NCBI GenBank assembly: GCA_903789375.1
Contig: CAIFEB010000002.1
Span: 62,001 to 126,000, forward strand
DNA from: an uncultured Eggerthellaceae bacterium
GTDB taxonomy: Bacteria > Actinomycetota > Coriobacteriia > Coriobacteriales > Eggerthellaceae
Direction: 5' to 3'
Length of the DNA: 64,000 bases
Positions 5,149 to 31,471 of this stretch are shown here, piece by piece. The position numbers and the translations under genes are program-made. Each line of letters opens with the position of its first letter. The first letter of the stretch is position 1. The notes beneath the pieces are model-generated. The model did not search any database. It was given only the letters and a program-made list of their open reading frames with translations, and was not told the origin of the DNA.

Positions 5149-5150
5149 AG

Positions 5151-6185
5151 CTACCGCCCCCTCTTGCGCTTGAGCAGGATGGCGATGACCACCGGCGCGC
5201 CGAAGATGGCGGTGACGGTGCTGATGGAGATCTCGGTCGGGGCGAACGCGCACCGCGCGATGAGGTCGCAGAACAGACAGAAGATGCCGCCGCCCAGAAA
5301 CGCCGCGGGAATCACGATGAGGGGCTTCGATGTGCCCAGAAAGCGCTTGACCAGGTGCGGAACGGCGATGCCCACGAAGCTGATGGGGCCCGCGAACGCC
5401 GTGACCACGGCCGCGAGCAGGCTCGACAGCACGACGAGCGCCACGCGGAACGCGCGGATGTTCACGCCCATGGACTGCGCGTAGTTCTCGCCCAGCTGAA
5501 ACGCCCCGATGGGCTTCGACAGCAGAAACGTCGCCACCGACGCAGCGAGGACGACCGGCGTCATGCCGGCGATGTCAGCCCAGTTCGTTCCCGAAAAGCT
5601 GCCGAGCGACCAGTTGCGCAGATTCACGATGTTCTGGTCCGACGCAAACGTGATGAGGAAATCCGTGGCGGCTGACGCGATGTAGCCGATCATCACGCCG
5701 GCGACGATGAGCATGGCCATCGAGTTGATGCGCCGCGACACGAGCAGCACGAACACCATGGCGATGGTCGACCCGATGAACGCGGACAGCACGAGCATCC
5801 ACGAGGACATCTGCGCCTGCGATCCCACGACGAAGATCATGACGAACGCGACGACGAACTTCGCGCCCGACGATATGCCCAGGATGTAGGGGCCGGCGAT
5901 CGGGTTGTTGAAGAACGTCTGCAGCAGGAAGCCCGCCAGCGCGAGCGCGCCGCCGAGCAGTATGGCCGCGATGAGGCGCGGCAGGCGGATGTCCCAGATG
6001 ACCTGCGCCGCAACCGTCTTCTGGCCGCCGCCGGCGAGCGCGCCCACGACGTCCGCCGGCGCGAGCATGGTGCTACCGATGCACGCGTTCAGCACGACGA
6101 ACACGGCGAGCGCGATGGCGAGCGACACGTACACCGCGACGATGCGGCGCGTGCGGGGACGTTGCGTTTGCAGGCTGGCGGTCAT
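5151..6185 (-). CDS. FecCD-family ABC importer permease
   Basis: A 344-residue polytopic membrane protein with about ten hydrophobic segments, the usual size for BtuC/FecD permeases. Hallmarks are RLPRLIAAILLGGALALAG near residue 70, NPIAGPYILGISSGA, and AGPISFVGIAVPHLVKRFLG in the C-terminal half, the region that contacts the ATPase. It lies between the binding protein (gap of four bases) and the ATPase (two-base gap). Two copies would form the translocation pore. The transported ligand is inferred only from the riboswitch and neighbours. Confidence 0.93.
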   Translation of the reverse strand: MTASLQTQRPRTRRIVAVYVSLAIALAVFVVLNACIGSTMLAPADVVGALAGGGQKTVAAQVIWDIRLPRLIAAILLGGALALAGFLLQTFFNNPIAGPYILGISSGAKFVVAFVMIFVVGSQAQMSSWMLVLSAFIGSTIAMVFVLLVSRRINSMAMLIVAGVMIGYIASAATDFLITFASDQNIVNLRNWSLGSFSGTNWADIAGMTPVVLAASVATFLLSKPIGAFQLGENYAQSMGVNIRAFRVALVVLSSLLAAVVTAFAGPISFVGIAVPHLVKRFLGTSKPLIVIPAAFLGGGIFCLFCDLIARCAFAPTEISISTVTAIFGAPVVIAILLKRKRGR

Positions 6186-8380: not shown

Positions 8381-8412
8381 CCTGGTTTGTACTTGTCAAA
8401 TTCGCAGCTCGA

Positions 8413-8418
8413 ATTATA
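8413..8418 (-). promoter_or_regulatory. Candidate -10 box for the cobalamin operon
   Basis: A perfect TATAAT on the minus strand, about 35 bases upstream of the riboswitch 5' side. No good -35 hexamer is visible at the usual spacing in the GC-rich DNA upstream, so the promoter assignment is tentative. Confidence 0.5.
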
Positions 8419-8603
8419 CGTCTGCGCGCCCGCGCGCGCGAGCCACGCAAACGGCGCACAGGGCGGGCGCCCCGAAGCAGCCGGCAAGTGACGCGCTTCA
8501 CGAGCACGCGCCCCATCAGCCAAAACGGCCGCATTAGGAGCCGCAGACGCGTGCGAGGCGCCCTGCCTTCACAGCAGCACGGCGCCGCTTTCAACATGCG
8601 CGT
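8419..8603. other. Intergenic region between the activator gene and the cobalamin operon promoter
   Basis: 185 GC-rich bases downstream of the RACE gene and upstream of the riboswitch promoter. I see no gene or T-tract terminator. A run of alternating CG dinucleotides lies near 8425-8442. Confidence 0.4.
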
Positions 8604-10154
8604 TCATTCGAACTCCATCGCATCGAGATAGCACTCATCGAACGTCGGATCGCCCGAGAGCTCGATGTAGCTGCAACGCTCGACGATGCGCCGCAGTTCG
8701 GCACGTGCTGCGGCCGAAAGCAGCACGGCGCTCGCACCCTCGATGCTCGTGTTGCCCACGCTCGTCGCCCGATCCAGCAACGCAGTCGGGAACAACCCGA
8801 CGCGCGCGGCGTTGCGCATATCGAGGAACTGGCCGAATCCGCCGGCGATCTGCAGCTTCGCCACATCGCCCGCGCCGATGCCCCTGCGCGCCAAAAGCGT
8901 CTCAATGCCGCCCGCCACTGCCGCCTTGGCGAGCTGCAAGTTGCGCACGTCCTCTTGCGTGACGGCGATGTCGCCCGCCAACCGGAACGCCGGGCGTCCG
9001 TCGAGCTCGAATATGCGGTCCGCAAGCGCCCGCGGGCAACTGCCGTCGCTCGGCACGCCGGCGCCCTCTTGCGCCCCCTCGTCGGCAATCGCCACCTCGT
9101 CGGCGCCGAGCATGCGCCCCGTCTCGTCGACGACGCCGACGTCGAGCAGCAGCGCCACCGCGTCGATGAGGCCCGTCCCGCAGATGCCGACCGGGTCCTC
9201 CCCGCCAATGACCTGCAGGCGCATGAGGCCGTCCTCGTACCGCACGCCCGAAATCGCACCAAGATACGCCGGCATGCCAAAACGCACGTTCGACCCTTCG
9301 AAGACAGGACCCGCCGCTGTTGCGCACGACACGATGCCCGACACGTCACCAAGCGCCATCTCGCCGTTCGTGCCCAGGTCCATGAACAGCACCGGGTCCC
9401 GTTCGGCGAGCATGTCCACGGCGAGCAAGCCGCACGTGATGTCTCCCCCAACGTAGCCAGCAACGCACGGGGCGAAGTACGCGCTGCCGCCCAAGAACGG
9501 CTCGCGCTTCCCGAACAGCGTCACCGGCGAAAACGGCGCGACGCCGATGCCGTGCGGGTCGAGTCCCGCAGCGATGTGCTCCATAGTGGTGTTGCCCGCC
9601 AGCACGATTTCGCCCACGTCCGCGCGACGCACGCCCGCCCGCTGGCAAAGCGTCGTGACAAGCGATTCGACCTCGTCGGCGATGAGGCTGCGCATCTCTT
9701 CCAGGTGCCCCTCATCTGCGGCTTTGATGCGCGTGATAACGTCCGCGCCGAAGACGATCTGGGCGTTGGAGTTGCCCGCGCTCGCGAGCAGCGCACCCGT
9801 TACCCGGTTGTACAGGCGACACACGGCGGTCGTGGTGCCGACGTCGACCGCAACGCCATAGCCAGCACCCGCGTCAGGTTCCCACCGCCTGCCCGCGCCC
9901 GCCGTGCTGACCTCCATCGCGCGGTTCTTCTGAAGCGTGACCTCCATGTCCGCGCACACCGGGGTCTGACACGCAAGGCGATACGACACGCCCGTGTCAT
10001 CGCGCACGAGCACGCGGCATTTCTTGCAGGTGCCGTTGCCACCGCACGGCGCTTCGATCAGCGCACCGGCGCTGCGCAGCGCTTCGAGCAACGTTGCCCC
10101 CGCAGCGGCTTCGATTTCCCGCCTCTCACCATCTTGGCGAACGACAATCTTCAT
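8604..10154 (-). CDS. RACE-type reductive activator of corrinoid enzymes (2Fe-2S plus ASKHA ATPase)
   Basis: 516 residues. The N-terminal domain is a plant-type [2Fe-2S] ferredoxin with Cys37, Cys43, Cys46 and Cys62 (PCGGNGTCKKC ... LACQT). After a linker, the C-terminal two thirds is the ASKHA ATPase fold of the family (DUF4445): GVAVDVGTTTAVCRLYN, AGNTTMEHIAAGLDP, LFMDLGTNGEMALGD and KLQIAGGFGQFLDMRNA. Such proteins use ATP to push electrons uphill and return accidentally oxidised Co(II) corrinoid to Co(I). Here it is downstream of, and probably co-transcribed with, the methyltransferase genes to its right. Its natural client is probably the corrinoid fusion protein at 14014-15792. Confidence 0.93.
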   Translation of the reverse strand: MKIVVRQDGERREIEAAAGATLLEALRSAGALIEAPCGGNGTCKKCRVLVRDDTGVSYRLACQTPVCADMEVTLQKNRAMEVSTAGAGRRWEPDAGAGYGVAVDVGTTTAVCRLYNRVTGALLASAGNSNAQIVFGADVITRIKAADEGHLEEMRSLIADEVESLVTTLCQRAGVRRADVGEIVLAGNTTMEHIAAGLDPHGIGVAPFSPVTLFGKREPFLGGSAYFAPCVAGYVGGDITCGLLAVDMLAERDPVLFMDLGTNGEMALGDVSGIVSCATAAGPVFEGSNVRFGMPAYLGAISGVRYEDGLMRLQVIGGEDPVGICGTGLIDAVALLLDVGVVDETGRMLGADEVAIADEGAQEGAGVPSDGSCPRALADRIFELDGRPAFRLAGDIAVTQEDVRNLQLAKAAVAGGIETLLARRGIGAGDVAKLQIAGGFGQFLDMRNAARVGLFPTALLDRATSVGNTSIEGASAVLLSAAARAELRRIVERCSYIELSGDPTFDECYLDAMEFE

Positions 10155-10174: not shown

Positions 10175-10720
10175 CTACAGCAACACAGCGCTCGTATAGG
10201 CGATGGTGAGCGGCCCATGGTTGTAGGGAATACCGGCCGCCTCGCACACCTGGTAGACCAAAAGCCCCGCCGCCTCCATCGAGACAAGGCGGCTTTCAGG
10301 ATGCCGGCACGGCGCATCGGGATACGAACACGTCTCGCACAGCGTGCAGGTGCCCGCCGCCAGCACGAGCGTATCGATGCCCGCCGCGACAAGGCGCCGG
10401 TACAACTTGAGTATGCGCGCTTTCTGCTCGCGTTCGGCGCTCATCATCGTTTCGCCGTCGAACTCGTCCTCGAGCTTGCGCACCGTCTGGACGACGAAGC
10501 ACGTCCGCCGCTGATCGATGAGCTTCTGGTACTTTTCGATGCCGCCGATTGCCGGCGGACACGCCCAGCTGTGCCCGTACATGCGGCACTTGCCCGACGC
10601 GCACATGTCGCGCACGTCCGCGCGTACAGCCAGGTCAGAGGCCGGGCACGTGCCACAATCCTCGAAACCGATGGCGTCGATGAGCTGTTTTACCGTTGCA
10701 ATCTGCGCTTCCGTATCCAT
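10175..10720 (-). CDS. DUF2284 cysteine-rich metal-binding protein
   Basis: 181 residues with many cysteines: FEDCGTCPASDL, MCASGKCRMYGHSWACPPAIG and TCTLCETCSYPDAPCRHPE. The SWACPP motif and the final cluster are typical of the DUF2284 family, whose biochemical role is not established; an Fe-S cluster or zinc is likely. The start codon directly follows the stop of the hydantoinase-like gene, with GGGAGGG as ribosome site, and RACE follows after 20 bases. The tight order suggests a role in metal handling or electron supply for corrinoid activation, but this is inference. Confidence 0.85.
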   Translation of the reverse strand: MDTEAQIATVKQLIDAIGFEDCGTCPASDLAVRADVRDMCASGKCRMYGHSWACPPAIGGIEKYQKLIDQRRTCFVVQTVRKLEDEFDGETMMSAEREQKARILKLYRRLVAAGIDTLVLAAGTCTLCETCSYPDAPCRHPESRLVSMEAAGLLVYQVCEAAGIPYNHGPLTIAYTSAVLL

Positions 10721-12766
10721 CTACCGCACCCTCCCCCGGTGCTCCTCTTCCGATGCGGTGGCGACGACGCTCGTGCCCAGGTAGATGTCGTCCCCGCTCG
10801 CCGTGTACGACTGGGATACCTTCGACGAAACTTCGAAGGCGAGCTCTCCGGCGGCACCGCGCCGACGCGCCTCGGCTTCCGCCTGTCGCGCGGCTTCACG
10901 CTGGGCGAACGCCAGCGCGTCGTCGTAAGCGTCTTCGAGTTCGTCCGCCGTGAACAGGCGTGTGCCCTCTTCGGCGTGAACGAGATAGCCGTCGATGCCC
11001 GCCGGCGTGTTGCGCGGCTCCACCTCAACCGCGCGCGTGGCCGAAACGCCCGCGACGACGACGCCGACCGCGTTCGCGACCTCGGCATGCTCCGGAATCA
11101 CGTACTCCGCGCCCAGCGCCTGCGCGACCGTCGGCAAAAAGATGTGCGTCGGAGCGCCGATGCCGATGAGACGTCCCGGGGTCGAGAAGTTCATGTCGAA
11201 CAGCGCGTCACCCGTGCCGCGGCGCGCTCGCTTCCATTCCTCGCGCAGCACCTCGTCGAAGCCCTGCGGCATCCCGTCTTCGAACGCCTTGGGGTAGCGG
11301 TTGCGCAGCAAAATCCTGACGATGTTCGCGTACAGCTTGAACTCCACCAGGTCGTACACGGCATCGCAGAACCGCTCCTGCGAAAGCTGCGGAAACCCCG
11401 TGCCCATCGATTCGGCGACGTAGCGGATGGTGAGCTCCGCCGCCTTAGTGTCGTACCGGCGGAAATCCCCGGTCACCTGCATGATGTCGGTCGGCGTCAG
11501 CCCGGCGCGCATGACGATACCCTCCGCCTCGAGCCGTGCGCTGTCAAGGGTGTAGATATCCACGCGATCGCGTTCGCCCAGAAGGCACGGACCCTCCTGC
11601 AGCGTTCTGATGAGGTGGCGCTCCTCGCGCGAGTACCGCGCCAGGTCGCCGGGATCGCGCACCAGGTACAGCAGCTCGTTGAAAGGCCGCGACGAGCGCA
11701 GCCCCGAATCCACGAGCGCACGCAGTTTCTCCACCACGCCGGGCCAGCGCTCCGCCGCCGCGCTGATGGGCTCCACGCGCTGCGGAGATATGACGAGCCG
11801 GCTGTCCTTCAGGCGCACGGCGCTGTCGCCGCCCAAACCGAACGTCTCGATGAACACGCCCTTCGTCTGCGTCAGCCAGTCGCCGATGCGAATGCCGCTC
11901 GTCATCACAGGAGCGCCGCCCTCGACGAGCGAGATGTCCGTCGTCGTGCCGCCCATGTCGATGATCAGGCCGTTTGACAGGCTGGCAAGCTCGTGGCTGC
12001 CATGGACGGACGCCGCAGGGCCGGACAAGATCGTCTCCACGGGACGGTCGGCGGCAAGGTCGCTTCCCATGAGGCTGCCATCGCTGCGAACGATCATCAT
12101 GGGCGCGTCGATGCCCGCCTGCGCGAGCGCCGCAGCCGCCGCATGCAGAAAGCTCTCGACAACGGGAAGCAGCCGGCCGTTGAGCAGGGCCGTCGCCCCT
12201 CGCGCCATCATGTTGAGGTCGCTCGACAGCTCGCAGCCCATCACGAACGGCACATCGTAGCGGCTTTTGAGCGCTTCCTTGCCGGCGCGTTCCACGACGG
12301 CGCCGTTGCGGGCGGCGTTCGCCTCGCACAGGCAGATGGCCTGCGCCTCGTCGAACCACGCGTGATGTTCGTCGATGAGCGCGCCCCAATCGGGCATGTC
12401 CACGACCGAGCCGTCGAACGAGCCTTTCGTGTCGAGGCAGAGCACGTCGCCTTCGCGCAGCCCGTACTTCTTCGCTGCGCCGATGCGGCGCAGGACCTGC
12501 TCGGTCGTGCCCATCAGCACGAGCTTCGCGCGCCCGCCTTTGCCTTCGACGCAGGCGTTGGTGGCAAGCGTCGTCGAAAGCGCGACGAACTCCGCCTGTT
12601 TGCGCAGGTCGCCAGGCAGCTCCGAGAGCACGGCGCAGATACCCCGCGCAAGGTCCTCCTTCGTCGTGCGCGCCTTGCCCTTGGCGAGCACGGCACGCGT
12701 CTCGAAGTCGAACACGACGGCATCGGTGTAGGTACCGCCCGTGTCTATGCCGATGCCGATTCTCAT
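10721..12766 (-). CDS. Hydantoinase/oxoprolinase-family ASKHA protein
   Basis: 681 residues. The N-terminal HydA-type ATP-binding fold reads MRIGIGIDTGGTYTDAVVF, then STTLATNACVEGKGGRAKL. A central block, GLIIDMGGTTTDISLVEGG, carries the second phosphate loop. The ATG at 12766 is preferred over an upstream one because GGGAGAG lies just before it and homologues start at the IGIDTGGT strand. Family members hydrolyse ATP with 5-oxoproline or hydantoins, but a divergent group sits beside corrinoid methyltransferase genes, and this copy lies between a URO-D methyltransferase and DUF2284/RACE. An activating or repair role in the methyl-transfer system fits better than hydantoin breakdown, since no HydB-like partner is present. 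This is inference. Confidence 0.85.
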   Translation of the reverse strand: MRIGIGIDTGGTYTDAVVFDFETRAVLAKGKARTTKEDLARGICAVLSELPGDLRKQAEFVALSTTLATNACVEGKGGRAKLVLMGTTEQVLRRIGAAKKYGLREGDVLCLDTKGSFDGSVVDMPDWGALIDEHHAWFDEAQAICLCEANAARNGAVVERAGKEALKSRYDVPFVMGCELSSDLNMMARGATALLNGRLLPVVESFLHAAAAALAQAGIDAPMMIVRSDGSLMGSDLAADRPVETILSGPAASVHGSHELASLSNGLIIDMGGTTTDISLVEGGAPVMTSGIRIGDWLTQTKGVFIETFGLGGDSAVRLKDSRLVISPQRVEPISAAAERWPGVVEKLRALVDSGLRSSRPFNELLYLVRDPGDLARYSREERHLIRTLQEGPCLLGERDRVDIYTLDSARLEAEGIVMRAGLTPTDIMQVTGDFRRYDTKAAELTIRYVAESMGTGFPQLSQERFCDAVYDLVEFKLYANIVRILLRNRYPKAFEDGMPQGFDEVLREEWKRARRGTGDALFDMNFSTPGRLIGIGAPTHIFLPTVAQALGAEYVIPEHAEVANAVGVVVAGVSATRAVEVEPRNTPAGIDGYLVHAEEGTRLFTADELEDAYDDALAFAQREAARQAEAEARRRGAAGELAFEVSSKVSQSYTASGDDIYLGTSVVATASEEEHRGRVR

Positions 12767-12842
12767 ATACGCGATTCTTCTCTCCCGTAATGTGCAAATC
12801 ATGCGGGGCCGCCTACTTGGGCAGCCTTACGCCGCGAGCATC

Positions 12843-13886
12843 CTACTTCTCGTAGGCGCCATACGTCTTGGCTATCTCTTGCATAAGGTGAGCACGCTTG
12901 AAGTCGGCATCGGGCGGGTACTCGCAACCCGTGGCAAGTACGAAGCCGCCACCCGCCGCCATATCGTCGATGCTCCTTTTGCATTCGGCAATCCAGTCCT
13001 CATCGCTACCAAACACCGCATGCGTCGGGTCGACCGCCCCGATGAGCGTGGTCTTGTCGCCGTACTTCTCCTTGCACTCCTTGAAATCTTTGCAATCGTC
13101 GGGTGGGTACAGGAACGAAATCGCCTCGGGGTGCATACGCTCAATCTGACGGTCGAAGTAGATCTTGGCGCCACAGTTGTGAATCATGACCATGCCACCA
13201 CGACCGTGCACGTACTCTGCCAGCTCCTGGACCAGGTCGCCTTCCATGTCGTCCCACATGTCCTTACTCATGATGGAGCCCGACGAAAACAGCGTGTCAT
13301 ACATGATGCCGACAGCGCCAGCATCTAGAAGCGCACCTGAGAACTCGAGCAGGGTCTTGTTGACCTCGGCTGCCGCGGCCTTCACGGCATCAGGCTCGTC
13401 ATAGATGTCCATGTACATCTCTTCTTGCTTGCGCATCATGGAAAGCGTGCCCAGCGGGCCGAACACAAAAGCGACAACCGGAACCTCGTCGCCGAAATGC
13501 TCGACGAGCTTTTTAACCGTGTCGACGTGCATCATCATGCGATCGCAGGTACGGTAATCGACATATTTGATCTTCTCATAGTCGTCTATGTCTTGAATGA
13601 GTTGGTTGTCGTAGTTGGGATGCGCCGCCTCGTTTTCGGGGTAGACGAGCTCCTGGCCCCACGCAGTGCACTCGACCGACAGGTCGATCAGCGTGACAAT
13701 GCAGTCGAGATTGAATTCCTCCTGCGCCTTGATGTAGGACTCGGCACAGAGGTCGGCATCCTTCGACCAGTCGGGATAGCTGCAACCGATGAGCCTACGA
13801 GCGCATCCGGCAATTATCGGGTAGTTCGGGACGCGGTCGGCTTCCTCATGGTTGAGTGCCTTGACGACTCGCTCCATGCAGTTCAT
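12843..13886 (-). CDS. URO-D superfamily methyltransferase, MtaA-like with complete zinc site
   Basis: 347 residues of the uroporphyrinogen decarboxylase fold as used by methylcobalamin:thiol methyltransferases. The zinc ligands of MtaA-type enzymes are all present: His236-x-Cys238 in MVMIHNCGAKIYF and Cys321 in VLATGCEYPP. The spacing is close to that known for MtaA. The complete thiolate zinc site suggests it takes the methyl group from a methylated corrinoid protein and passes it to a zinc-activated acceptor (a thiol, or tetrahydrofolate in an acetogen-like scheme). A strong ribosome site (GGGAGGAGAG) precedes the ATG. It lies between the corrinoid fusion gene and the hydantoinase-like gene, all on the minus strand. 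Confidence 0.88.
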   Translation of the reverse strand: MNCMERVVKALNHEEADRVPNYPIIAGCARRLIGCSYPDWSKDADLCAESYIKAQEEFNLDCIVTLIDLSVECTAWGQELVYPENEAAHPNYDNQLIQDIDDYEKIKYVDYRTCDRMMMHVDTVKKLVEHFGDEVPVVAFVFGPLGTLSMMRKQEEMYMDIYDEPDAVKAAAAEVNKTLLEFSGALLDAGAVGIMYDTLFSSGSIMSKDMWDDMEGDLVQELAEYVHGRGGMVMIHNCGAKIYFDRQIERMHPEAISFLYPPDDCKDFKECKEKYGDKTTLIGAVDPTHAVFGSDEDWIAECKRSIDDMAAGGGFVLATGCEYPPDADFKRAHLMQEIAKTYGAYEK

Positions 13887-14013: not shown

Positions 14014-15792
14014 CTACTTCTCCTGCAGCAGCTCCACTGCTCGGTTTGCCGCCTGGCCGGCGTCTTCGGTGTACGCGTCCGCTCCGACCTCGTCGGCGTA
14101 CGCCTGGGTCACCGGCGCACCGCCGATCATGATCTTCACCTGGTCGCGCAGGCCGGCTTCCTCGATCGCCTTGATCGTTGTGTTGATCTCGGGAATCGTG
14201 GTGGTGAGCAGGGCCGAGCAGCACACGATGTCGATGTCGTCATGCTGCTGCAAGAACGTCACGAACGTCTCGGCCGGCACGTCGGTGCCCAGGTCGGTCA
14301 CCTCGATGCCCTTGCCCTCGAGCATCATGCGGACGAGATTCTTGCCGATATCGTGCTGATCGCCCTTGACGGTGCCGATGACCGCCTTGCCGATGGGCTC
14401 CGAGCCTTCCTTGGTTAGGTAGGGCTTGAGCACCTTGGTACCGGCGCTCATGGCGCGAGCTGAAACGAGCATCTCCGGAACGAAGACCTCGCCGGCGGAG
14501 AACTTGTCGCCGATGATGGACATAGCCGCGACCAAGCCTTTGTTCAGAACGTCTTCGGGATTGCAGCCCTCGTCGACGGCCTTCTGCACGAGCGCCTTGA
14601 CGTCCTTGCGCTTGCCGTGCTGGACGGCCGCGGAGATCTCGTCGTAGATGGAACCGCCCTCTTCGGACGCCTCGTCGTTCGCGTCGGCAGGCGCAGCAGG
14701 AGCCTTTTCGACCTGCTCAGCGGGCTTGGTCTCAGTGCTGATGACAACCTTCTCGCGCTCAGCCGGCTCGGCCGAGAAGTCCTTGAAGTTCTTGCGGTCG
14801 TAGGTCTTGAAATACTCTGCGCTGTACTCGTCAATCGCCTTGTGGATTTCGCCGTATACCTCCGGATAGGACGAAATGTTCAGACCCTGGGTCTGGCACG
14901 GGATGAACGACAGCGGGCCGTTCGCGTCGCACGCCTTCTTCACCTGGGCGCGAATCTTCTCGGGCGTCCAGTCGGGAACATCGACGATGGTGGAGTCGAC
15001 GCCGCCCATGAACGCGATCTTATCGCCGTACTGGTCGATCATCTTGGGGATGTCGTTGGTGGACATGACGCCCTGCCACACGTTGATGCCCATCTCGATC
15101 ATGTACGGGACGAGCGTTTCGGCGTACGAGTCGGAATGGTGCACGACATACTTTACGCCATGATCGTGGTAGTAGCCGTAAATCTGCTTGTAGGCATCCA
15201 GGAAGAACTCAGCGAACATGTCGGGTGCCAAGAACGTCGAGGTGTTGGTACCCCAGTCGTCATGATGGAACATCACATCGGGCTTGATGTAGGTGCAGAT
15301 GCCCTCGGCGATGTTGAGCTCCCACTCGGTGATGTACTGGATGAGCTCCTTCATCTCCTTCGGGTGTTCATAGAAATCCGCGAGGATGCGGGTGATCTCG
15401 CCCAGATAGTGGGTCAGCTCGAAGACGCCGGGCAACTCCATCGCAGTAACGAACTGCTTCGAGCGGTCGACCTGTTCGGCCTGCGCGATGAACTCTTCCC
15501 ATTCGCTTTCCGGGTAGATGCTCTTGGGCGCGTGGACCGTTTCTTTCCAATGCGTGATGTCGGGCATGACGATGAGGTCCGGGCGATGGTTCGGGAAGGC
15601 GCCCGGCTGGCCGACAGGCCACGACACCGTGCAGCCCCAGTCGTTGATCTTGTCGATTTCGCCCTTCTTCGCCTGGTTGCGGTGCTTCAGAATCGGGTTG
15701 CGTACGAACGCAAACGCATCGTACTGATTGGCGAAACGCTCGGGATTGCCGCGTTTGATTACCTCTTCAAAGTTCTCTCGCTCGGTGAGCAT
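14014..15792 (-). CDS. CmuA-like fusion: URO-D methyltransferase with C-terminal corrinoid-binding domain
   Basis: 592 residues. Residues 1-345 are a URO-D-fold methyltransferase (starts LTERENFEEVIKRGNPERF). Residues 346-378 are an acidic, Ala-rich linker. Residues 380-460 form the helical cap of MetH-type corrinoid proteins. Residues 465-592 are the B12-binding Rossmann domain with the base-off motif GDQHDIGKNLV; His480 is the expected lower cobalt ligand, followed by IMIGGAPVT. The domain order matches CmuA, the chloromethane-utilising methyltransferase/corrinoid protein. The methyltransferase half has HHSD (218-221) where MtaA-type enzymes have HxC, so it probably acts on the methyl donor rather than a thiol. 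The donor is not deducible. It is the first gene of the island's left operon, divergent from the PucR regulator. Confidence 0.9.
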   Translation of the reverse strand: MLTERENFEEVIKRGNPERFANQYDAFAFVRNPILKHRNQAKKGEIDKINDWGCTVSWPVGQPGAFPNHRPDLIVMPDITHWKETVHAPKSIYPESEWEEFIAQAEQVDRSKQFVTAMELPGVFELTHYLGEITRILADFYEHPKEMKELIQYITEWELNIAEGICTYIKPDVMFHHDDWGTNTSTFLAPDMFAEFFLDAYKQIYGYYHDHGVKYVVHHSDSYAETLVPYMIEMGINVWQGVMSTNDIPKMIDQYGDKIAFMGGVDSTIVDVPDWTPEKIRAQVKKACDANGPLSFIPCQTQGLNISSYPEVYGEIHKAIDEYSAEYFKTYDRKNFKDFSAEPAEREKVVISTETKPAEQVEKAPAAPADANDEASEEGGSIYDEISAAVQHGKRKDVKALVQKAVDEGCNPEDVLNKGLVAAMSIIGDKFSAGEVFVPEMLVSARAMSAGTKVLKPYLTKEGSEPIGKAVIGTVKGDQHDIGKNLVRMMLEGKGIEVTDLGTDVPAETFVTFLQQHDDIDIVCCSALLTTTIPEINTTIKAIEEAGLRDQVKIMIGGAPVTQAYADEVGADAYTEDAGQAANRAVELLQEK

Positions 15793-16376: not shown

Positions 16377-17963
16377 ATGGAACTGTCTCTTGCATTCATC
16401 GCTTCAAGTTTACAGAGGTCGTATCCGGTTGCGCTACGCGGCGCCGACGGCTATTTCCGCCAAATTGACAATCCCTACCACATAGACGGCTCACCGACGT
16501 TCAAAACCGCGAGAATACTGATGAAGGCGCATCCTACAAAGAACATTGAGAAGTATCTCTCAATTGCATGCGAAGGGGATGACTTCGGTCCCCATACGCT
16601 TGACGGAATATCGGGTCTCATCTGGATCGGAATCACAGAGCCACCAAGAGGCATCGACAGCCTTTGGATTTCCGCCCAAGCAAGCGCAACCAACGTTTTC
16701 TATCAGGTCCTTAACCTATTCGATTATTACAACGAATGGGAAAATGAGCTACGCGACATGCTGCTGAAGCGCCGTCCTATCAAAGAGGTCGTGGCGAAAA
16801 TCGGCGAAGTTACTGATCGGCCCTTCTGGTATGCGGATACGAAGCTTCATGTCCTCTATATGAGCGACTCTCCCGAACTTGCAGAAAAGAGCGAAAAATG
16901 GCGCCATCAAAAGCAAACAGGGCGCTATCCCAACGATGTCATCAGCACACTCGTTGCGAGCGGCGAGCTCGATTTAATCAATAATCACCCGCATGCGTGG
17001 ATTTTCGACGGCGCCAACAGCCGAACCTACTCCATGCCCTTCGTCTCCAAGACGATAAACCTGAACGGGAGCGTTTACGGCCACATCTTCATCATCGAGG
17101 ACGAACCGGGGCATGCCGCCTGCGACCTCGCCCTCGCCGAAACGGTCGGCAATCTCGTCGCCACCTACGTCCAGCACGGCTACAACAGCGGCGGTAGCGG
17201 CAAACGCTATACCGAACAGCTATTGCGCTCATGCCTTTCAGGCGACGACGTGAGCGTCGATGAACGTACCGGGTTGCTCGCCATGCTCGGATGGAGCGCC
17301 AGCAGCGATTTCGCCGTTGTGGTCTTCGACCGCTGCGATGCCTCCAATGGCAGAAAGGAAGCGCCTCCAGTCCAAGTAGACCAAATCGCCTGGCGCTTTC
17401 CGAACGCACGCGTTTTCTCTTACGACATCTACATCGTACTCGTCAGCGAAATACCAGCACGTGGGTTTGACGCATTCATTGCCCGCATCGCAGACTCCTG
17501 CAACGAGCTGGGATGGAGAGCAGGAATCAGCAACGAGCTCGATGATTTCCAAGAACTCGACTCCCAATACGGACAAGCGACTATCGCTCTGCGTAAGGGA
17601 GCGGAGCGCAACCCGACATCGCGAGTGTATCTGTATCAGGATTATTCAATGGATTACATCTGCCAGAGGCTGAACAGCGAAATCAACGAGCATCTGCTCA
17701 TCCATCCCGACATCGAACGGATTATCAACCACGACCGCGAAAACGGATCTGAGCTCTTTCAGACGCTGAAAATCTATCTAGCCAACGAACGCAACGTATC
17801 ACAGACGGCCAAAGCGCTGTACCTGCATCGCAACAGCGTGACCTACCGCATTGAGAAAATCAGCTCCATCATGAAGACGAGCCTCGACAACGCCGACAAT
17901 CGATTGTCAATTGAGCTGTCGATCAGGCTTTGGGAATCCCGAAAACGATGCGAACCCGAATAG
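16377..17963 (+). CDS. PucR/CdaR-type transcriptional regulator
   Basis: 528 residues, cytoplasmic, no membrane segments. The C-terminal 60 residues are the PucR-family helix-turn-helix (KIYLANERNVSQTAKALYLHRNSVTYRIEKI). The middle part resembles GGDEF-like/CdaR linkers and the N-terminal half is a probable GAF-like sensor region. It is transcribed away from the corrinoid methyltransferase operon across a 584-base spacer, the usual layout for a pathway-specific activator that senses the substrate. Its base composition is less GC-rich than neighbouring genes, and a remnant of a homologous C-terminus follows directly, so the gene may have been acquired or replaced by recombination. Confidence 0.88.
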   Translation: MELSLAFIASSLQRSYPVALRGADGYFRQIDNPYHIDGSPTFKTARILMKAHPTKNIEKYLSIACEGDDFGPHTLDGISGLIWIGITEPPRGIDSLWISAQASATNVFYQVLNLFDYYNEWENELRDMLLKRRPIKEVVAKIGEVTDRPFWYADTKLHVLYMSDSPELAEKSEKWRHQKQTGRYPNDVISTLVASGELDLINNHPHAWIFDGANSRTYSMPFVSKTINLNGSVYGHIFIIEDEPGHAACDLALAETVGNLVATYVQHGYNSGGSGKRYTEQLLRSCLSGDDVSVDERTGLLAMLGWSASSDFAVVVFDRCDASNGRKEAPPVQVDQIAWRFPNARVFSYDIYIVLVSEIPARGFDAFIARIADSCNELGWRAGISNELDDFQELDSQYGQATIALRKGAERNPTSRVYLYQDYSMDYICQRLNSEINEHLLIHPDIERIINHDRENGSELFQTLKIYLANERNVSQTAKALYLHRNSVTYRIEKISSIMKTSLDNADNRLSIELSIRLWESRKRCEPE

Positions 17964-18066: not shown

Positions 18067-18993
18067 CTACCGCGAGAACCCGACGACCTCGTCGTGGTAG
18101 GTCTCCGCCGCGTGCTTCACGTACTTGTACGCGCTCATGCCCTTGCCCGACAGAATGACGAGCGTGTTGAGCTTGTCGGCGTCCACCGCGCCGGAGAACG
18201 GCTCGATCGACGAGTACGTGCCCACGCAGTTGACGATCATAACGCCTTCGACTGTGTTCACGAACCCTTTCACGCGGTACGTCTGGTCAAGAAACGTCTC
18301 GATGATGTGCTCGAGCGTCGCGCGGGGCACGCCGTCTGCCAGCTGCAGATACAGAACGCGCGAGGTCAGATCCGCCGTCATCGGCGCCTCCATCCCATCA
18401 TCGTGCTGATGCTTCGCAAGCACGTCGAGCACGTCGAAGTCGATGGCGCCGAAACTCGTCTCCACAATGGGGATGTCAGGACGCTGCCCCACGATGATGT
18501 CGCGCGTGGCGGCCAGCTGCGCAGGCGTCGCTTTGTCCACCTTGTTGATGAGGGCGATGTCGCTCGATGCGAGCTGCTTGACCGCGTTCTGCGCCGTTGC
18601 GTAGATTTTGGGAAACCGAATCGCGTCGACCAGGCAAATGGCCCCTTCGTAGGAGATGCCCGGGAACCGGTCCGTCTGCGCGAGCAGCTTGCGCACGCCC
18701 GTGGGATTCGAAAGCCCCGACGCCTCGACGATCACGACGTCGCTGTCCTCTTTGACAAAGCGCTGCAGCGCGCGCTCGAACTCGTCGATACGGCACGAGC
18801 AGAACACCGACCCGCCGGCGATTTCGTCGAGCTCTGCGCCGAGCTCGGCAAGCAGGGTGCCGTCGACGCCTTCCCTGCCGAAATCGTTGATGATGAGCTG
18901 CGTCTTCTGACCTGCGAACAGGCGGATGAAGTTCTTGATGAACGTGGATTTGCCCGCGCCCAGAAATCCCGTGACCAGATACAGCTTCGTCAT
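18067..18993 (-). CDS. CobW/G3E-family metallochaperone GTPase
   Basis: 308 residues starting MTKLYLVTGFLGAGKST (Walker A). The metal-site region reads GGSVFCSCRIDEF, close to the family CxCC motif but with CSC only. The G4 motif is NKVDKAT. The C-terminal CobW domain follows. The ATG at 18993 has a GGAGGGGGA ribosome site, so it is preferred over an upstream in-frame start. G3E GTPases deliver metals (Zn, Co, Ni) to target enzymes. Between URO-D/corrinoid genes, loading zinc into methyltransferases or cobalt handling are both plausible. Related CobW-like proteins are often found beside URO-D methyltransferases in anaerobes (general knowledge). Confidence 0.88.
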   Translation of the reverse strand: MTKLYLVTGFLGAGKSTFIKNFIRLFAGQKTQLIINDFGREGVDGTLLAELGAELDEIAGGSVFCSCRIDEFERALQRFVKEDSDVVIVEASGLSNPTGVRKLLAQTDRFPGISYEGAICLVDAIRFPKIYATAQNAVKQLASSDIALINKVDKATPAQLAATRDIIVGQRPDIPIVETSFGAIDFDVLDVLAKHQHDDGMEAPMTADLTSRVLYLQLADGVPRATLEHIIETFLDQTYRVKGFVNTVEGVMIVNCVGTYSSIEPFSGAVDADKLNTLVILSGKGMSAYKYVKHAAETYHDEVVGFSR

Positions 18994-19182: not shown

Positions 19183-20568
19183 TTACGCACCCATCTTCTC
19201 AATCGCTTCTTCGATGGTACTCTTGAGCTCCTCATTGGAAGGAATAATCGACTTCCACTTGAGCTCGCCGTTCAAGTACATCGACGGCAGGTTGGGTACG
19301 CCCATCTTCACGCAACGGGCGACGTTCTCCTTGTAGATGTACTTGTACTCGACCATGTCGATCTTATCGCCGAACTGCGCCTTCGCCCAGTTGGCCGCGT
19401 TCATCATGTAGCCGCACGCCGCGCACTGCGACGAGTCGAGGGTGAACACCTCGAGCAGTGGCTTCTTCAGATGCTCGTAGTCGGGCAGCACCACGCCGGA
19501 CGTGTCAACCTCGGCGGCCTGGTAGTTCTTCACCATCTCACGTACGTTGTCGGTTTCGATGGCAGCCTGCGCGCACCCGATGCAGTTCTCGATAGGCACG
19601 TCGTAGGGCATGTCGCAGCCCGGGGCGATGATGAAGTTGTGCTTGGAGTCGACGCTGTCCAGGATGTCGACGACGCACTTCATGTTGTCCTGCTGGTTGC
19701 CAAGGCGCATGACCGTGGTCAGCGGGATGTTGCCTCCAATCGCCACGTTGTAACGGTCGGTGATCTCCTTCGCCTTGACGATGTCGACGTTCTCATCGAC
19801 GGAGATGGAATCGGGGCCGGTCTTGCACATGCCCTCGACGTTGCGCGACGCGTCGCCGCAGACGAAGAAGGACGAGAACGCGCCCTTCTCGCGAATGTGG
19901 TTGAAGATGTCGGTGTAGGGCTTGATCATGTACTTCTCGAAGTCATCGGCCGAAATCTGGGAGATCAGCGGGTCGACCAGAGCGATGACGTCCATTCCGG
20001 CCTCGATGTAGTAGTCCGCCATCTTCATCGCCGTGCGCGCGCAGAATGCGAACAGGTCGGAAATCTCGTCCTCGAAGTCATACATGTCGGTGAAGACCTC
20101 GTTGCCGCGCAGGTGCGAAGCCAGCGTGAACGGGCCGCAGATCAGGCCATACAGAGCGGTCGTGTCGCCGACCTCCTTCTTCATGCGGCGCATGACCTCG
20201 AGCACGTACGGAATGCGGCCGGATTCCTTGGTCGGGATCTTGCAGTCGCACGGCGTCTCGGGCGGCTCCTCGTCGTCCTCGGTTTCGAGGGGGTGGCTGG
20301 TGACCGAGGGCGGGTTGTCATCGGCCCAGGCAAGGTCGCAGCCGAAGCACTCGGCCTCGATCTGCAGGTCGAAGATGACGGGCTGACCGTCGGGACGATA
20401 CAGCTTGTTGACCTCGAGCAGCGATTCCACCGCCGCATCGGGGTCGGTCAGAAACTTGGTTGCAGGATATCCCTTGAGGTGGCCGGCGTGAACGCCGCAG
20501 AACGGAACCCACGGAGCACGCTCGACTTCCTCGTGCTTCAACGTACGAAGCAGCAAATCCTTGCTCAT
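19183..20568 (-). CDS. URO-D methyltransferase fused to a C-terminal thioredoxin-like domain
   Basis: 461 residues. Residues 1-350 have the URO-D methyltransferase fold (MSKDLLLRTLKHEEVERAPW start, GPFTLASHLRG at 145-155). The zinc site is partly kept: Cys237 in FFVCGDA and Cys318 in APGCDMPYD, but the usual His two before the first Cys is Phe235. Residues 370-461 form a small thioredoxin-like domain with a CAAC pair at 382-385 (SSQCAACGYMM) and the cis-proline region NLPSMYLNGE. A GAGGAGG ribosome site precedes the ATG. A built-in dithiol could act as methyl acceptor, zinc ligand or reductant of the corrinoid partner. I know of no characterised enzyme with this layout, so the function is open. 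Confidence 0.85.
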   Translation of the reverse strand: MSKDLLLRTLKHEEVERAPWVPFCGVHAGHLKGYPATKFLTDPDAAVESLLEVNKLYRPDGQPVIFDLQIEAECFGCDLAWADDNPPSVTSHPLETEDDEEPPETPCDCKIPTKESGRIPYVLEVMRRMKKEVGDTTALYGLICGPFTLASHLRGNEVFTDMYDFEDEISDLFAFCARTAMKMADYYIEAGMDVIALVDPLISQISADDFEKYMIKPYTDIFNHIREKGAFSSFFVCGDASRNVEGMCKTGPDSISVDENVDIVKAKEITDRYNVAIGGNIPLTTVMRLGNQQDNMKCVVDILDSVDSKHNFIIAPGCDMPYDVPIENCIGCAQAAIETDNVREMVKNYQAAEVDTSGVVLPDYEHLKKPLLEVFTLDSSQCAACGYMMNAANWAKAQFGDKIDMVEYKYIYKENVARCVKMGVPNLPSMYLNGELKWKSIIPSNEELKSTIEEAIEKMGA

Positions 20569-20803: not shown

Positions 20804-22166
20804 TTAACTAATGGCACGCGCCAACCTCAAACTGCATATTTTAATCGGGTAAGGCTTGCCAGTTTCAAGGGCCTTGAGCATCAAATCAGCTTGCGCATTA
20901 AAAATGATCATGCAGTACGCGGGATACTCCTCAAGGCCTATCATCTTCTTTTCAAGGTCTTTTCCAACGCCCTTCTCGAATCCGAAACCAGCCTCATTGT
21001 GACCAGCCCCCGCGCCAGGCAGAATCTGCCCGCCCGGAGCATCGAGGTTGCCCGTGATGGCCATAAGAGCAACGGTTACCTGACCTTGTTGCATGCCATT
21101 GGTCTTCTGATCTGCCGCCAGCCCCCACTGGATAGCACCAGGCTTGGCTTCGGCGTACATACGCGCAGCAGCATAAATCTTTTCAACCGGAACCTCGCAG
21201 ATTTCAGCTGCCTTCTCAGGCGTCATGCTCCGAACGCGGTCTTTCAGCTCATCGAAGCCATAGCACCAATATTCGACAAAACCAGGATTATAAAGATCTT
21301 CGTTAATGATGGTGCTCAGGAACGCCATGCCGAGCGCCGTATCAGTACCGGCGCGGAGGCGAAGATGGATGTCGGCCCGCGCAGCGAGCCACGTAGCACG
21401 GGGATCAATGACAATAAGCCGCGTGCCCCTTCTCATCGCGTCGACCACCGCATGCCCAAAAAAGCCGTCGGGACTTGATTCGAGCGGAGCCTTGCCCCAG
21501 ATCATAAGAACTTCCGTAAGCTCGTATCGAGGATCGTCCCAATGTCCGGGCAGCGCACCTGAGTAGTCCCATTCCGGATACGCCGTACCAGCGATATAAG
21601 CGATTGCAGCCAACCGGGGGTATAGCACGCATAGCCGGATTGCGTATAGCAGAAGTTCGGCGTCCCAAAGCATATCGAGCTATACGGCGCAAACGTACCG
21701 CTTTCGCGCCCAGTGCCCGCAAAGACGACGATAGACTCGCGTCCGTACTTTGCAGTGATACGGTCGTAGTTCTCCTTGATTATCGAGAAGGCTTCCTCCC
21801 AGGATATCTGCTCCCAAGCGTTGGTTTTACCGCAATCTTCCTTCGCCCGCTTCATCGGATGGAGAATTCGAGCAGTCGAGCAGGGTTATAGATGTAGTCC
21901 TTCAGCGCAATGCAACGCGGACACAAACGTCCTTGCGTGACCGGGTTGTTCTCGTTCCCTTCAACTTTCACCAATCTGCCGTCATCGTTTGCATAGAGCT
22001 TCAAGCCACATCCTACAGGATGGCACCCGGGAGGCGACCACGGGCTTGTGCGCGTTACCGTCAGCCCGTCCTCCTCATACCGCCATGGCTTTCCGATATC
22101 GTTTACGTCGGAAAGCGTATCGAGCTTAACTACCTGAGCCTTCTTATAGAACTCGTCTTCGCTCAT
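20804..22166 (-). pseudogene. Broken molybdopterin oxidoreductase large subunit (frameshifted and truncated)
   Basis: Three consecutive frames give one protein related to the intact enzyme at 28848-31118. The N-terminus (MSEDEFYKKAQVV, ATG at 22166, with PGCHPVGCGLKLY and GRLCPRCIAL as Fe-S ligands) runs to about 21855. It continues in a second frame (MKRAKEDCGKTNAWEQISWEE to SGYACYTPGWLQS near 21600) and in a third (IAGTAYPEWDYSGALPGHWD to ALETGKPYPIK near 20825), then ends after an unrelated LRLARAIS tail. Two frameshifts and loss of roughly the C-terminal 40 percent, including the cofactor-closing domain, make it non-functional. It interrupts the methyltransferase island, and a partner ferredoxin is absent. 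Confidence 0.9.
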
Positions 22167-22674
22167 CCTGCCCCCTCTCTCGTAACGCCGCTTCAAATCT
22201 CCCAGTAAAGCAGCAATTCCGACCGACAGGCAGACAGTAGCAAGCTCTGAAGTGCTCATCATCCCGATGGTCTCGGCAATGGCGCTCTTCATCAAGAATT
22301 GATGAGCTTGTTGATACAAGCAGGCACTTTGCGATGGATTCGACAGAAGCCCTACGCAATTAGCAAATCCCACCAACTAGACAAATACGTACAGTCAATT
22401 TGTTTATGCGATCTGTACACACTTTGCGAAAAGCACAGGCATCAGCCGCCCAACCCAATTGCCTCAAGGTAATTCGAGGGAGGGTTGTCACCGTACAATG
22501 CTCTCACGAGGATGAAGCATTAAAGAGCCGTCTATCCGCATCGAACAGGTTCGGGGGCACATTTTTTGTCGTACAGGCGCGGCGGACACCAGAAGCTTTA
22601 GTAGGCGTTGGTGGATTGGCACGCAACCCACCAACTTGCTACCAACCGCGCCCCGGGTATCGTACCCCCAAAAA
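22167..22674. other. Spacer upstream of the broken molybdopterin gene
   Basis: 508 bases, AT-richer than average. The reading frame of the pseudogene stays open upstream to about 22376 but gives no recognisable domain. An inverted repeat GTTGGTGG (22607-22614) / CCACCAAC (22628-22635) lies just downstream of the next methyltransferase gene and may end its transcript, though no T-run follows. No intact gene is seen. Confidence 0.45.
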
Positions 22675-23664
22675 TTAATCACGAGGGTTCTCTAGAGCCC
22701 ACTCCCTTCCGTAGTCTTTCAACTCGTCAAGCATGACCTTTCTGCATCGATCGTTGAAGGGAAGCGGCGTTGCTTGAGGGAAGAACCTTCCTCCGGGGCA
22801 GTAGGTATCTATGCAGCGATGAACCTCCGCACGAACCTCATCGTCCGTGATCTCTTCGCCATCGATTGCGGGACTGTCGATTCCACCTGCAATGGCGAGT
22901 TTGTGATCCGTCCTCTCCTGAATCCCCACAATGTCGTTCTGAGGAATTACTCCTTGCCAGAGGTCAATGCCCACATCCACCATGTCTTCAACGATAGGTT
23001 CGCATACGCAGTCAGCATGGTGGAAATACAGGGCCCCGCAATCGTGAATGGTCTGAGCAATCTCTTTCTGCAGCGGCTTGATGAGCTCACGCCAGGTTCT
23101 GGGCGGAAGGAATAGATTCTGCTTAGTTCCCCAGTCGTCTTGGAAAAACACAACGTCAGGGTGAATATGAACAGCTGCCTCTTTGATGGCAGCAATCTTG
23201 AAGTCAGCAATGGCTCGCAGGAGCTCCCCCATCGCCTCGGGCTCTTCGAGGTACGCGCAAAGCGCATTTTCCATTCCCATCAGGAAATGCGCCCGTTCGA
23301 ACAAACCCGCCGTGCTGAAGTAGTAGACGAACTTTTGGCTTCGGTCTACTTGCGCCGCTGCCGCTTCGGCTTCTGACCAGTCGAGCCCCGTTACCGGCGG
23401 TATTTTAATCTGCTCTTTCCATTTCGTAACGTCTTTGATTACCGCGTTCTCATCGGTGACATAGGGGTGCTTCCCCGGAGCACCCGGAAGCCAAATGCAC
23501 GTCGTTCCCCAAGAATCCTGATGCTGCTGCCCGTCGTTGGGGATTCTGTCGGCTTTGAGAATAGGGTCGTTTACAATGAGCGCCATCGACTCTCGAATAT
23601 CGGCATAATGATCTGGTTGCTTCATATCGTAAATCGCCATGAAGTTCTCACGCGGTGTCATCAT
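22675..23664 (-). CDS. URO-D superfamily methyltransferase, single domain
   Basis: 329 residues. It is closest in visible sequence to the N-terminal half of the corrinoid fusion protein: the starts MTPRENFMAIYD and LTERENFEEVI are alike, and both share DPILK, FFQDDWGT / FHHDDWGT and IDLWQGVIPQND / INVWQGVMSTND. It has HHAD (215-218) at the metal site and no cysteine at the third zinc position, as in the fusion. It has no corrinoid domain of its own, so it may use the corrinoid half of the fusion protein or one encoded elsewhere. The ribosome site GGAGGG fits the first of two adjacent ATGs. It is probably a substrate-specific methyltransferase with unknown donor. Confidence 0.85.
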   Translation of the reverse strand: MMTPRENFMAIYDMKQPDHYADIRESMALIVNDPILKADRIPNDGQQHQDSWGTTCIWLPGAPGKHPYVTDENAVIKDVTKWKEQIKIPPVTGLDWSEAEAAAAQVDRSQKFVYYFSTAGLFERAHFLMGMENALCAYLEEPEAMGELLRAIADFKIAAIKEAAVHIHPDVVFFQDDWGTKQNLFLPPRTWRELIKPLQKEIAQTIHDCGALYFHHADCVCEPIVEDMVDVGIDLWQGVIPQNDIVGIQERTDHKLAIAGGIDSPAIDGEEITDDEVRAEVHRCIDTYCPGGRFFPQATPLPFNDRCRKVMLDELKDYGREWALENPRD

Positions 23665-28537: not shown

Positions 28538-28879
28538 TTACTCTTGATCAGGAACGAAAAGAACTTGCCGTCCCTTTTTCTCCAGGTCTTTCGACAGCTC
28601 CTCAACCGTGCCGAATTTCATGCACCCCGTGTAGCAGCTGTGCACACATGCCGGTTTCTTCCCCTTCGAAACGCGATCTGAGCACAGGTCACACATATCC
28701 GTAGGTACGGGAACGTAGGTCAACTGCCATTTATCGCCCTCGATGTTCCAAGGACCGACTTCATAAACCTTTATTCCCCATTTACCTTCGGGGATGTCAT
28801 GCTCCATCTTGCATTCGACCTCGCAGGTGTGGCAGTTTGAGCAATACTCATAGTCTATGAGAAGTGCTTGCTTTGTCAT
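28538..28879 (-). CDS. 4Fe-4S ferredoxin-type electron-transfer subunit
   Basis: 113 residues. The first cluster motif is CSNCHTCEVECKMEH. Further cysteines lie in MCDLCSDRVSKGKKPACVHSC and CMKFG. This is shorter than DmsB-type subunits (about 190-200 residues) and holds fewer cysteines than needed for four clusters; two are likely. The ATG at 28879 has a GAGGAGG ribosome site and overlaps the end of the molybdopterin enzyme gene by 32 bases. It presumably passes electrons to or from that enzyme in the cytoplasm, as neither protein has a signal peptide or membrane anchor. Confidence 0.88.
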   Translation of the reverse strand: MTKQALLIDYEYCSNCHTCEVECKMEHDIPEGKWGIKVYEVGPWNIEGDKWQLTYVPVPTDMCDLCSDRVSKGKKPACVHSCYTGCMKFGTVEELSKDLEKKGRQVLFVPDQE

Positions 28880-31118: not shown

Positions 31119-31471
31119 ATGAGCTCCTCTCTCGTAATTGGCGAACCTCATGCAGTTATCGCCAACCAGGCGCTTTCGAGAGAGCTCTCTTTCCCAAGCC
31201 CATCCCTGCGTCAAGCGGCGATGGACTCAACTTACGTTTCGGAGAACACGAACGCATCGGTTCGGATGGATAAGAAGGACCGTAGCTTGGTATGAATTTC
31301 GGAGCTAATGCACGCTGTTAAACCGGTATAGCCCATTGGTATGAGGCGTTTCGCATAATTAAGACCCCGATTGGCAAGAATGGCTAACGCCGCTCGAAAC
31401 GAATGCCTACAATTTTTCGCGTCTTGCAGGTTAGAGTGATTTAAGAGAAGAAAGCGGCTCACCTGCTCATA
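31119..31471. promoter_or_regulatory. Upstream region of the molybdopterin enzyme operon
   Basis: 353 bases with lower GC. A 12-bp palindrome AGAGAGCTCTCT (31179-31190) lies about 65 bases upstream of the start codon and could be a regulator site. No gene is visible. Confidence 0.4.

Follow-up and report, generated by a model that had tools for sequence, protein, structure and literature searches.

The stretch of DNA analysed here (the window; 64,000 nucleotides of contig CAIFEB010000002.1 from an uncultured Eggerthellaceae bacterium) encodes on its minus strand a 461-residue protein in which a URO-D methyltransferase barrel is followed by a predicted thioredoxin-like domain. We refer to this protein as URO-D-Trx (Table 1). 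Its open reading frame has a GAGGAGG-type ribosome site 5' of the ATG and a GC content of 0.56/0.36/0.87 by codon position; a long plus-strand frame across the same positions was considered as the gene and discarded as antisense. The coordinates given in the sequence-only reading, which names no strand, are correct. The next gene downstream encodes a CobW/COG0523 GTPase (PF02492, 104.5 bits, above the gathering threshold of 20.7), and the surrounding genes encode further URO-D proteins, one of them fused to a corrinoid protein, as well as a RACo-like protein that we take to be a corrinoid reductive activator (2Fe-2S and ASKHA domains). Just upstream of the URO-D-Trx gene, positions 20804-22376 of the minus strand encode molybdopterin oxidoreductase fragments of 289 and 174 aa that resemble an intact 788-aa frame at 28848-31214 and look like a broken copy.

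Table 1. Positions of the features discussed, in the window unless a locus (L) is named
Feature	Position	Strand	Basis or remark
URO-D-Trx gene	19183..20568	minus	461 aa and stop; ORF, Pfam
URO-D/MtaA-like barrel	19582..20565	minus	residues 2-329; PF01208 E 7.4e-55
Thioredoxin-like domain (predicted)	19186..19461	minus	residues 370-461; Pfam, profile, fold
CAAC dithiol	19414..19425	minus	residues 382-385; invariant in 37-row alignment
Pro428	19285..19287	minus	aligned with cis-Pro of thioredoxins (1nho/1fo5 alignment)
Phe235	19864..19866	minus	position of MtaA zinc histidine
Cys237	19858..19860	minus	metal-ligand Cys kept (predicted)
Cys318	19615..19617	minus	metal-ligand Cys kept (predicted); TGA (Sec) in split orthologues
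CobW/COG0523 GTPase, next gene downstream	18067..18993	minus	PF02492 E 6e-30; ATG at 18993 assumed as start
PucR-type regulator, divergent	16377..17963	plus	PF13556
URO-D methyltransferase fused to corrinoid (B12-binding) protein	14014..15792	minus	PF01208, PF02607, PF02310
Second URO-D protein, His-Cys-Cys (MIHNCG, GCE)	12843..13886	minus	PF01208; motif
Hydantoinase A-like protein	10721..12769	minus	PF01968; recurrent, its cluster in 6/75 loci
DUF2284-like protein	10175..10720	minus	clusters with L018 protein matching PF10050
RACo-like protein	8604..10154	minus	sequence and cluster
Further URO-D protein, upstream	22675..23664	minus	PF01208 E 9.9e-11
CobW-related protein, GGGUIGC	L209:4965-5597; L210 near 4996-5600; L211 near 8392-9054	L211: reverse strand numbering	metal motif
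NorQ/CbbQ-type AAA ATPase and VWA pair	L209:387-3796; L211:3761-7008	L211: reverse	family scan on L209 only

Structural models and relation to known enzymes

The window protein matched the URO-D family with 186.8 bits (gathering threshold 23.9), and AlphaFold2 modelled it with a pLDDT of 93.0 and a pTM of 0.90. The closest structure to the barrel (model residues 1-341) was that of MtaA, 4ay8, with a VIA Z score of 41.6 and an rmsd of 1.8 over 326 residues; true UROD entries scored lower, at about 36. Foldseek of the model returned MtaA of Methanosarcina mazei (E 1.7e-22), and a profile search returned 4ay7 (E 7.6e-28). In the profile alignment to the PDB sequences, the MtaA histidine (LHICG) lies opposite Phe235 and both cysteines are kept. 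This agrees with the sequence-only reading, which held the zinc histidine to be lost and Cys237 and Cys318 to be retained. In an alignment of 37 rows (the window protein and 36 of the 38 relatives introduced below), Phe235, Cys237, Cys318, Cys382 and Cys385 are invariant.

Because the VIA alignment of the whole model covered mainly residues 1-345, the thioredoxin domain was modelled alone, giving a pLDDT of 90 and the order b-a-b-a-b-b-a. Foldseek matched this module to thioredoxins with E values from 7.5e-5 and TM scores of about 0.6-0.74. Its profile matched the archaeal thioredoxins 1nho (1.8e-8) and 1fo5 (1.1e-6), CAAC aligning with the CxxC of these proteins and Pro428 with their conserved Pro, and Thioredoxin_3 (PF13192) matched residues 379-452 (E 1e-4; 22.7 bits, below the gathering threshold of 24.8). 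On these models and profiles, the C-terminal domain is predicted to be a thioredoxin-like fold with a CxxC and a conserved Pro. A thioredoxin-like module with CAAC at 382-385 had been proposed from the sequence, and a C-terminal structure of another kind would have spoken against the proposal; the predicted fold matches thioredoxins. The proposed cis-proline loop stands as a proline loop, and the cis geometry of Pro428 is putative, being read from the 1nho/1fo5 alignment. The module resembles 1nho, 1fo5 and the HUIPC thioredoxin-like (seleno)protein family NF047660 in its fold, CxxC/UxxC and Pro loop; unlike it, those proteins stand alone, and the NF047660 match was weak (23.7 bits vs a cut-off of 105).

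URO-D-Trx shares with MtaA and MtbA (4ay7/4ay8; TIGR01463) the barrel fold and two metal-site cysteines, but it differs from them in the absence of the zinc histidine, the extra thioredoxin module and scores far under the curated cut-offs (TIGR01463, 134.2 vs 235.4; MtbA, 121 vs 600; MtaA, 120.7 vs 400). S-methyltransferases of the URO-D superfamily have been described with a His-Cys-Cys motif, which in the available part of that account is kept by the Mlp proteins of type 1 mlp clusters except several Mlp1 (Kountz and Balskus, PMC10418091). The window protein has Phe-Cys-Cys, and none of 76 family members has the His. Given these scores and this motif, we did not file URO-D-Trx as MtaA or Mlp; at most, it works like them.

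A conserved family and its gene neighbours

A scan of genome contigs recovered 38 related loci with 54-95% identity to the window protein, in Coriobacteriaceae, Butyricicoccus, Oscillospiraceae, Lachnospiraceae, Acidaminobacter, Acetivibrio and others. In a sample of Clostridia, 42 of 391 genomes matched at E <= 1e-40, 40 strongly (E < 1e-120) and the other two weakly; among the strong matches, the gene of G576 was cut at a contig end and that of G580 was broken. The enzyme is thus present in roughly a tenth of the sampled Clostridia genomes, gut Butyricicoccus and its relatives among them. At E <= 1e-30, six of 396 Actinobacteriota genomes matched: the window genome, two with a split form described below and three with URO-D proteins lacking the module. 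A single fusion or an assembly artefact is ruled out by the 38 loci and the 40 Clostridia genomes. The database search that had been proposed for the same domain pair and its neighbours uncovered a conserved and widespread family, common in anaerobes of the gut and elsewhere and linked to a CobW GTPase that the sequence-only reading does not mention, and no isolated oddity.

We collected 76 distinct members, that is, sequences carrying the thioredoxin module or paired with it, and 44 relatives without it. At the position of the histidine, 74 members have Phe and two Tyr; Cys237 is present in all 76, and position 318 is Cys in 74 and Sec in two. The dithiol is CAAC in 61 members, CAPC in 12 (among them that of L102), UPAC in two and STMC in one, so that 75 of 76 have CxxC or UxxC. 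Relatives without the module kept the His in 41 of 44 cases and the whole His-Cys-Cys in 36. Judged by these alignments, the loss of His goes hand in hand with the presence of the module (76/76 vs 3/44), and the residue pattern, kept by 76 distinct homologues, exceeds chance. FastTree placed the module-bearing proteins in one clade (support 1.0 each for the split pair and the 75 fused rows, 0.88 for the 77 rows together); His loss and module therefore represent one evolutionary transition, maintained since then, with no independent repeats. The STMC member (L106, genome G638) has SxxC in place of CxxC and no CobW gene in its stretch. A stand-alone thioredoxin-like gene with PCTAC lies near a family member on the reverse strand of L095 at about 10.8 kb (G483) and also occurs in L157.

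Neighbouring genes were counted in 75 distinct loci, with the partial loci L037, L038 and L040 excluded; the counts are approximate, as stretches were at most 20 kb, some short, and a custom gene caller was used. A CobW/COG0523 gene was found in 68 of the 75 loci, in 67 of them within 2.5 kb. The seven others were L016 and L034 (contig ends), L092 and L093 (split), L094 (broken), L097, and L106 with its SxxC. CobW lay near 5 of 46 URO-D genes without the thioredoxin module vs 65 of 77 with it, a contrast that is biased by comparison flanks of which many were only ~0.6-1.5 kb and by a few remaining duplicates. Small corrinoid proteins were encoded in 34 loci, RACo-like proteins in 26, PocR-AraC regulators in 20, BioB-like radical SAM proteins in 14, MttB-family proteins in seven and MeTr-type H4folate methyltransferases in six, with MeTr genes near the family member in L119, L100-L102 and L105.

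Three loci (L032, L034 and L035) contain, along with the family gene and a corrinoid protein gene, a gene interrupted by an in-frame TAG that we take to be dimethylamine-methyltransferase-like (MtbB-like, of the pyrrolysine type), and what are presumably PylS- or PylC-like genes lie near the family member in these loci and in L039. Like MtaA/MtbA, URO-D-Trx is thus placed beside a corrinoid protein and a substrate methyltransferase in methylamine clusters; in those of methanogens, MtbA occupies the corresponding place. Presumed AmtB/GlnB-like genes adjoin the member in L036, L039 and L108, a hint that methylamine may serve as a nitrogen source. CODH/ACS (CdhC) was detected in nine of 47 host genomes and one of 20 controls (a 25-bit match), which argues that most hosts are no acetogens and, together with the few MeTr loci, that a folate sink is not general. 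In 19 of 41 hosts, no protein other than the family member matched the MtaA/CmuA model at E <= 1e-25. A corrinoid protein was present in 46 of 47 hosts and 16 of 20 controls, a weak discriminator because MetH was counted.

Other neighbours recur in subsets of loci. The BioB-like gene adjoins the URO-D-Trx/CobW pair or lies close to it in L007, L008, L010-L013, L015, L017, L018, L021, L024, L036, L116 and L117, accompanied in L007, L008, L011, L013 and L036 by an SsuA-type ABC transporter. A PadR-like regulator gene lies near the pair in L004-L007, L009, L013, L014 and L032, and the L007 copy has Cys-rich ends (CAC N-terminal, CCCC C-terminal). Genes for a BCCT transporter, a corrinoid protein and an EamA permease precede URO-D-Trx and CobW in L119, L120 and L123, where we also take some genes to be PanE/PanB-like.

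A split form with in-frame TGA codons

Barrel and thioredoxin are encoded by separate, adjacent genes in six of 18 genomes (four of 12 genera) of one Actinobacteriota family, first in G043 and G250 and then in four more. An in-frame TGA lies exactly at Cys318 of the barrel (SPGUDMPYDVPVEN) and exactly at the first Cys of the CxxC, Cys382, of the thioredoxin (LTLDSLQUPACGYM), each in six of six genomes; the four later proteins, which stand outside the 76-member count, also have Tyr, Sec and UPAC. Compared with the halves of the window protein, the split barrel of L209 has 36% identity (329 aligned) and the split thioredoxin 38% (85 aligned). Sequence past each TGA is conserved, with differences mostly at the third codon position: 4/1/14 over 38 codons (L092-L208) and 16/10/38 over 85 in another comparison, the L211 barrel being left out. 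A tRNA-Sec was found in five of the six genomes, the sixth being 78% complete. Candidate SECIS hairpins occur 3' of the TGA in both of the two genomes tested, at a level not above background. From these reading frames, both split partners appear to carry selenium at matching spots, and the presence of Sec at both positions within one operon speaks for a chemistry shared by these residues. The split form appears to add a URO-D family to the selenoproteins; the words uroporphyrinogen and MtaA are absent from a selenoprotein review (PMC13188914). A TAG in L042/L043 was considered as pyrrolysine inside one fused protein. This reading was rejected, as a GGAGG ribosome-site-like sequence lies 5' of it and a TTG start directly 3', and L208-L211 have the two genes in different frames, each with its own ATG.

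In L209-L211 two CobW-type genes precede the split pair, one with GGGCICC and the other with GGGUIGC, which includes an in-frame TGA; this Sec-type CobW is thus found in three of the six split-form genomes. The L209 protein scored 132.6 bits against NF041053, below the cut-off of 180. No CobW gene was found in the stretches of L092 and L093 or the short stretch of L208. The AAA ATPase of L209 has a CbbQ/NirQ/NorQ C-terminal domain (CbbQ_C) and is encoded with a VWA protein further upstream, and by gene calls only L211 has genes of like size and place; the pair is possibly a metal-insertion machine. On the 3' side of the thioredoxin gene, L092 and L093 encode GcvH-like and DGC-domain-like proteins, and the GcvH-like protein of L092 is by eye apparently fused to a methyltransferase-like domain. 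L043 contains the start of a second thioredoxin-like frame with UPCC.

Possible roles of the thioredoxin dithiol

The sequence-only interpretation is supported in part: the module with its dithiol and the loss of the zinc histidine with both Cys kept are borne out, and a CAAC that reaches the barrel mouth, binds the metal or accepts a methyl group is a proposal. The reading we prefer, with a probability of roughly 0.45, is that URO-D-Trx is a corrinoid thiol methyltransferase in which the thioredoxin dithiol acts at the barrel metal site and replaces a soluble thiol such as coenzyme M, the small thiol used by methanogen enzymes. It would form a new subfamily of the MtaA kind of corrinoid-dependent methyltransferase. 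The CobW GTPase would help to equip Cys237 and Cys318, where the His is gone, with a metal that is probably zinc; with Phe in the position of His and both Cys kept, a third thiolate could occupy the vacated place. The module, fused in the window protein and a separate subunit elsewhere, would bring its CxxC dithiol to this site, with Cys382 (Sec in the split form) standing in for coenzyme M. Either metal-bound or paired with Cys318, Cys382 would attack the methyl carried by the methyl-corrinoid protein; the product, a methylated sulfur compound, would be released by Cys385 or another thiol. URO-D-Trx would then be the acceptor-side enzyme (MT2) in methylamine clusters. The metal and its identity, the docking of CAAC at the barrel mouth, the direction of transfer, the acceptor and the product are what we infer from the MtaA-like barrel, the loss of His together with the module, the CobW linkage, the corrinoid context and Sec at both split sites. 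Several observations weigh against this assignment. The L106 member has SxxC and no CobW in its stretch; the correlation of His loss with the module is one event in one clade; many loci have no nearby substrate methyltransferase; and members near a MeTr gene would need no extra thiol acceptor. Further, a methylated CxxC needs a release step, for which nothing was found, and a role in redox chemistry or metal transfer would also account for Sec at a metal-ligand position.

We consider it doubtful that a small thiol or selenol such as sulfide, selenide or homocysteine, bound at the barrel metal, is the acceptor instead, with the module acting as reductant of it or of Cys237/Cys318, or as a persulfide carrier, and not as methyl acceptor. 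Such a role would suit the thioredoxin fold, whose CxxC and Pro loop are normal, and thiol-disulfide exchange between residues 318 and 382 would be well served by Sec at both; several members adjoin genes for SsuA-type (sulfonate family) transporters, and an Mlp relative methylates selenide (PMC10418091). By itself, however, a small-thiol acceptor leaves the loss of His exactly in this clade unexplained.

It is rather unlikely that URO-D-Trx is a donor-side enzyme (MT1) that moves a methyl group from a methyl-sulfur, methyl-selenium or methyl-metal(loid) compound to the corrinoid protein, with CAAC and Cys237/Cys318 holding the soft atom. The 19 of 41 hosts in which nothing else matches MtaA/CmuA, the single small corrinoid gene of L132 with no adjoining substrate methyltransferase, and a binding-protein gene that is weakly SaoX-like (65.6 bits, cut-off 300) would fit this direction of transfer, but the pyrrolysine and betaine clusters already have a donor-side enzyme. 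Improbable, too, is a module confined to metal delivery or maturation, passing metal from CobW to CxxC to Cys237/Cys318 without a role in turnover. CobW in 68 of 75 loci points that way, as do the three split clusters in which CobW, URO-D protein and thioredoxin partner all have Sec, the NorQ-like AAA/VWA pair, and the loss in L106 of the first Cys together with the nearby CobW; against it, maturation factors are rarely fused to their client, and almost the whole clade has the module. A docking or structural appendage with no redox or catalytic role, to which the missing first Cys of L106 might point, is most improbable given CxxC/UxxC in 75 of 76 members across wide divergence and Sec in six genomes.

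Returning to the thiol methyltransferase reading, the split Sec pair at matching spots suggests a thiol-based methyl-transfer chemistry not described before. A broader proposal, which we rate as unlikely, is that bacteria without coenzyme M evolved a protein-borne replacement: a thioredoxin dithiol or selenol, either fused to the barrel or on a partner subunit, would accept the methyl group or enter a mixed disulfide at a remodelled Cys/Sec metal site that a dedicated CobW GTPase loads. The metal might then be a soft one other than zinc, given Sec in the CobW, barrel and thioredoxin proteins of three split clusters. If true, this would be a general methyl sink for demethylation of methylamine, betaine and other compounds in non-acetogenic gut anaerobes. 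The family is a concrete candidate for the destination of the methyl group after methylamine or betaine demethylation in anaerobes without coenzyme M or acetyl-CoA synthase.

Parts of the arrangement have precedents in the portions of the literature at hand. Type 1 Mlp systems likewise have URO-D relatives in non-methanogens, corrinoid and RACo partners, a sulfur/selenium link and usually no H4folate methyltransferase, but no thioredoxin module is described in that portion of the article, and the His-Cys-Cys invariant in Mlp2/Mlp3 is absent here (PMC10418091). COG0523/CobW subfamily 13 also adjoins corrinoid methyltransferase genes, in clusters whose partners, as far as excerpted, are mtaA/mtaB/mtaC, whereas here the partner is URO-D-Trx (Haas et al. 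2009, PMC2770081). The SAO (Sec-assisted organometallic) system shares the feature of several neighbouring selenoproteins including a thioredoxin-like one, but has no URO-D or CobW among its proteins in the section at hand (PMC13188914). The sequence-only reading knew of no characterised enzyme of the URO-D-Trx architecture, and our literature search for a URO-D-thioredoxin fusion likewise found no description of one. A protein table in PMC10134865 gives the number 461, perhaps a length, for the URO-D protein ISORED2_02836.
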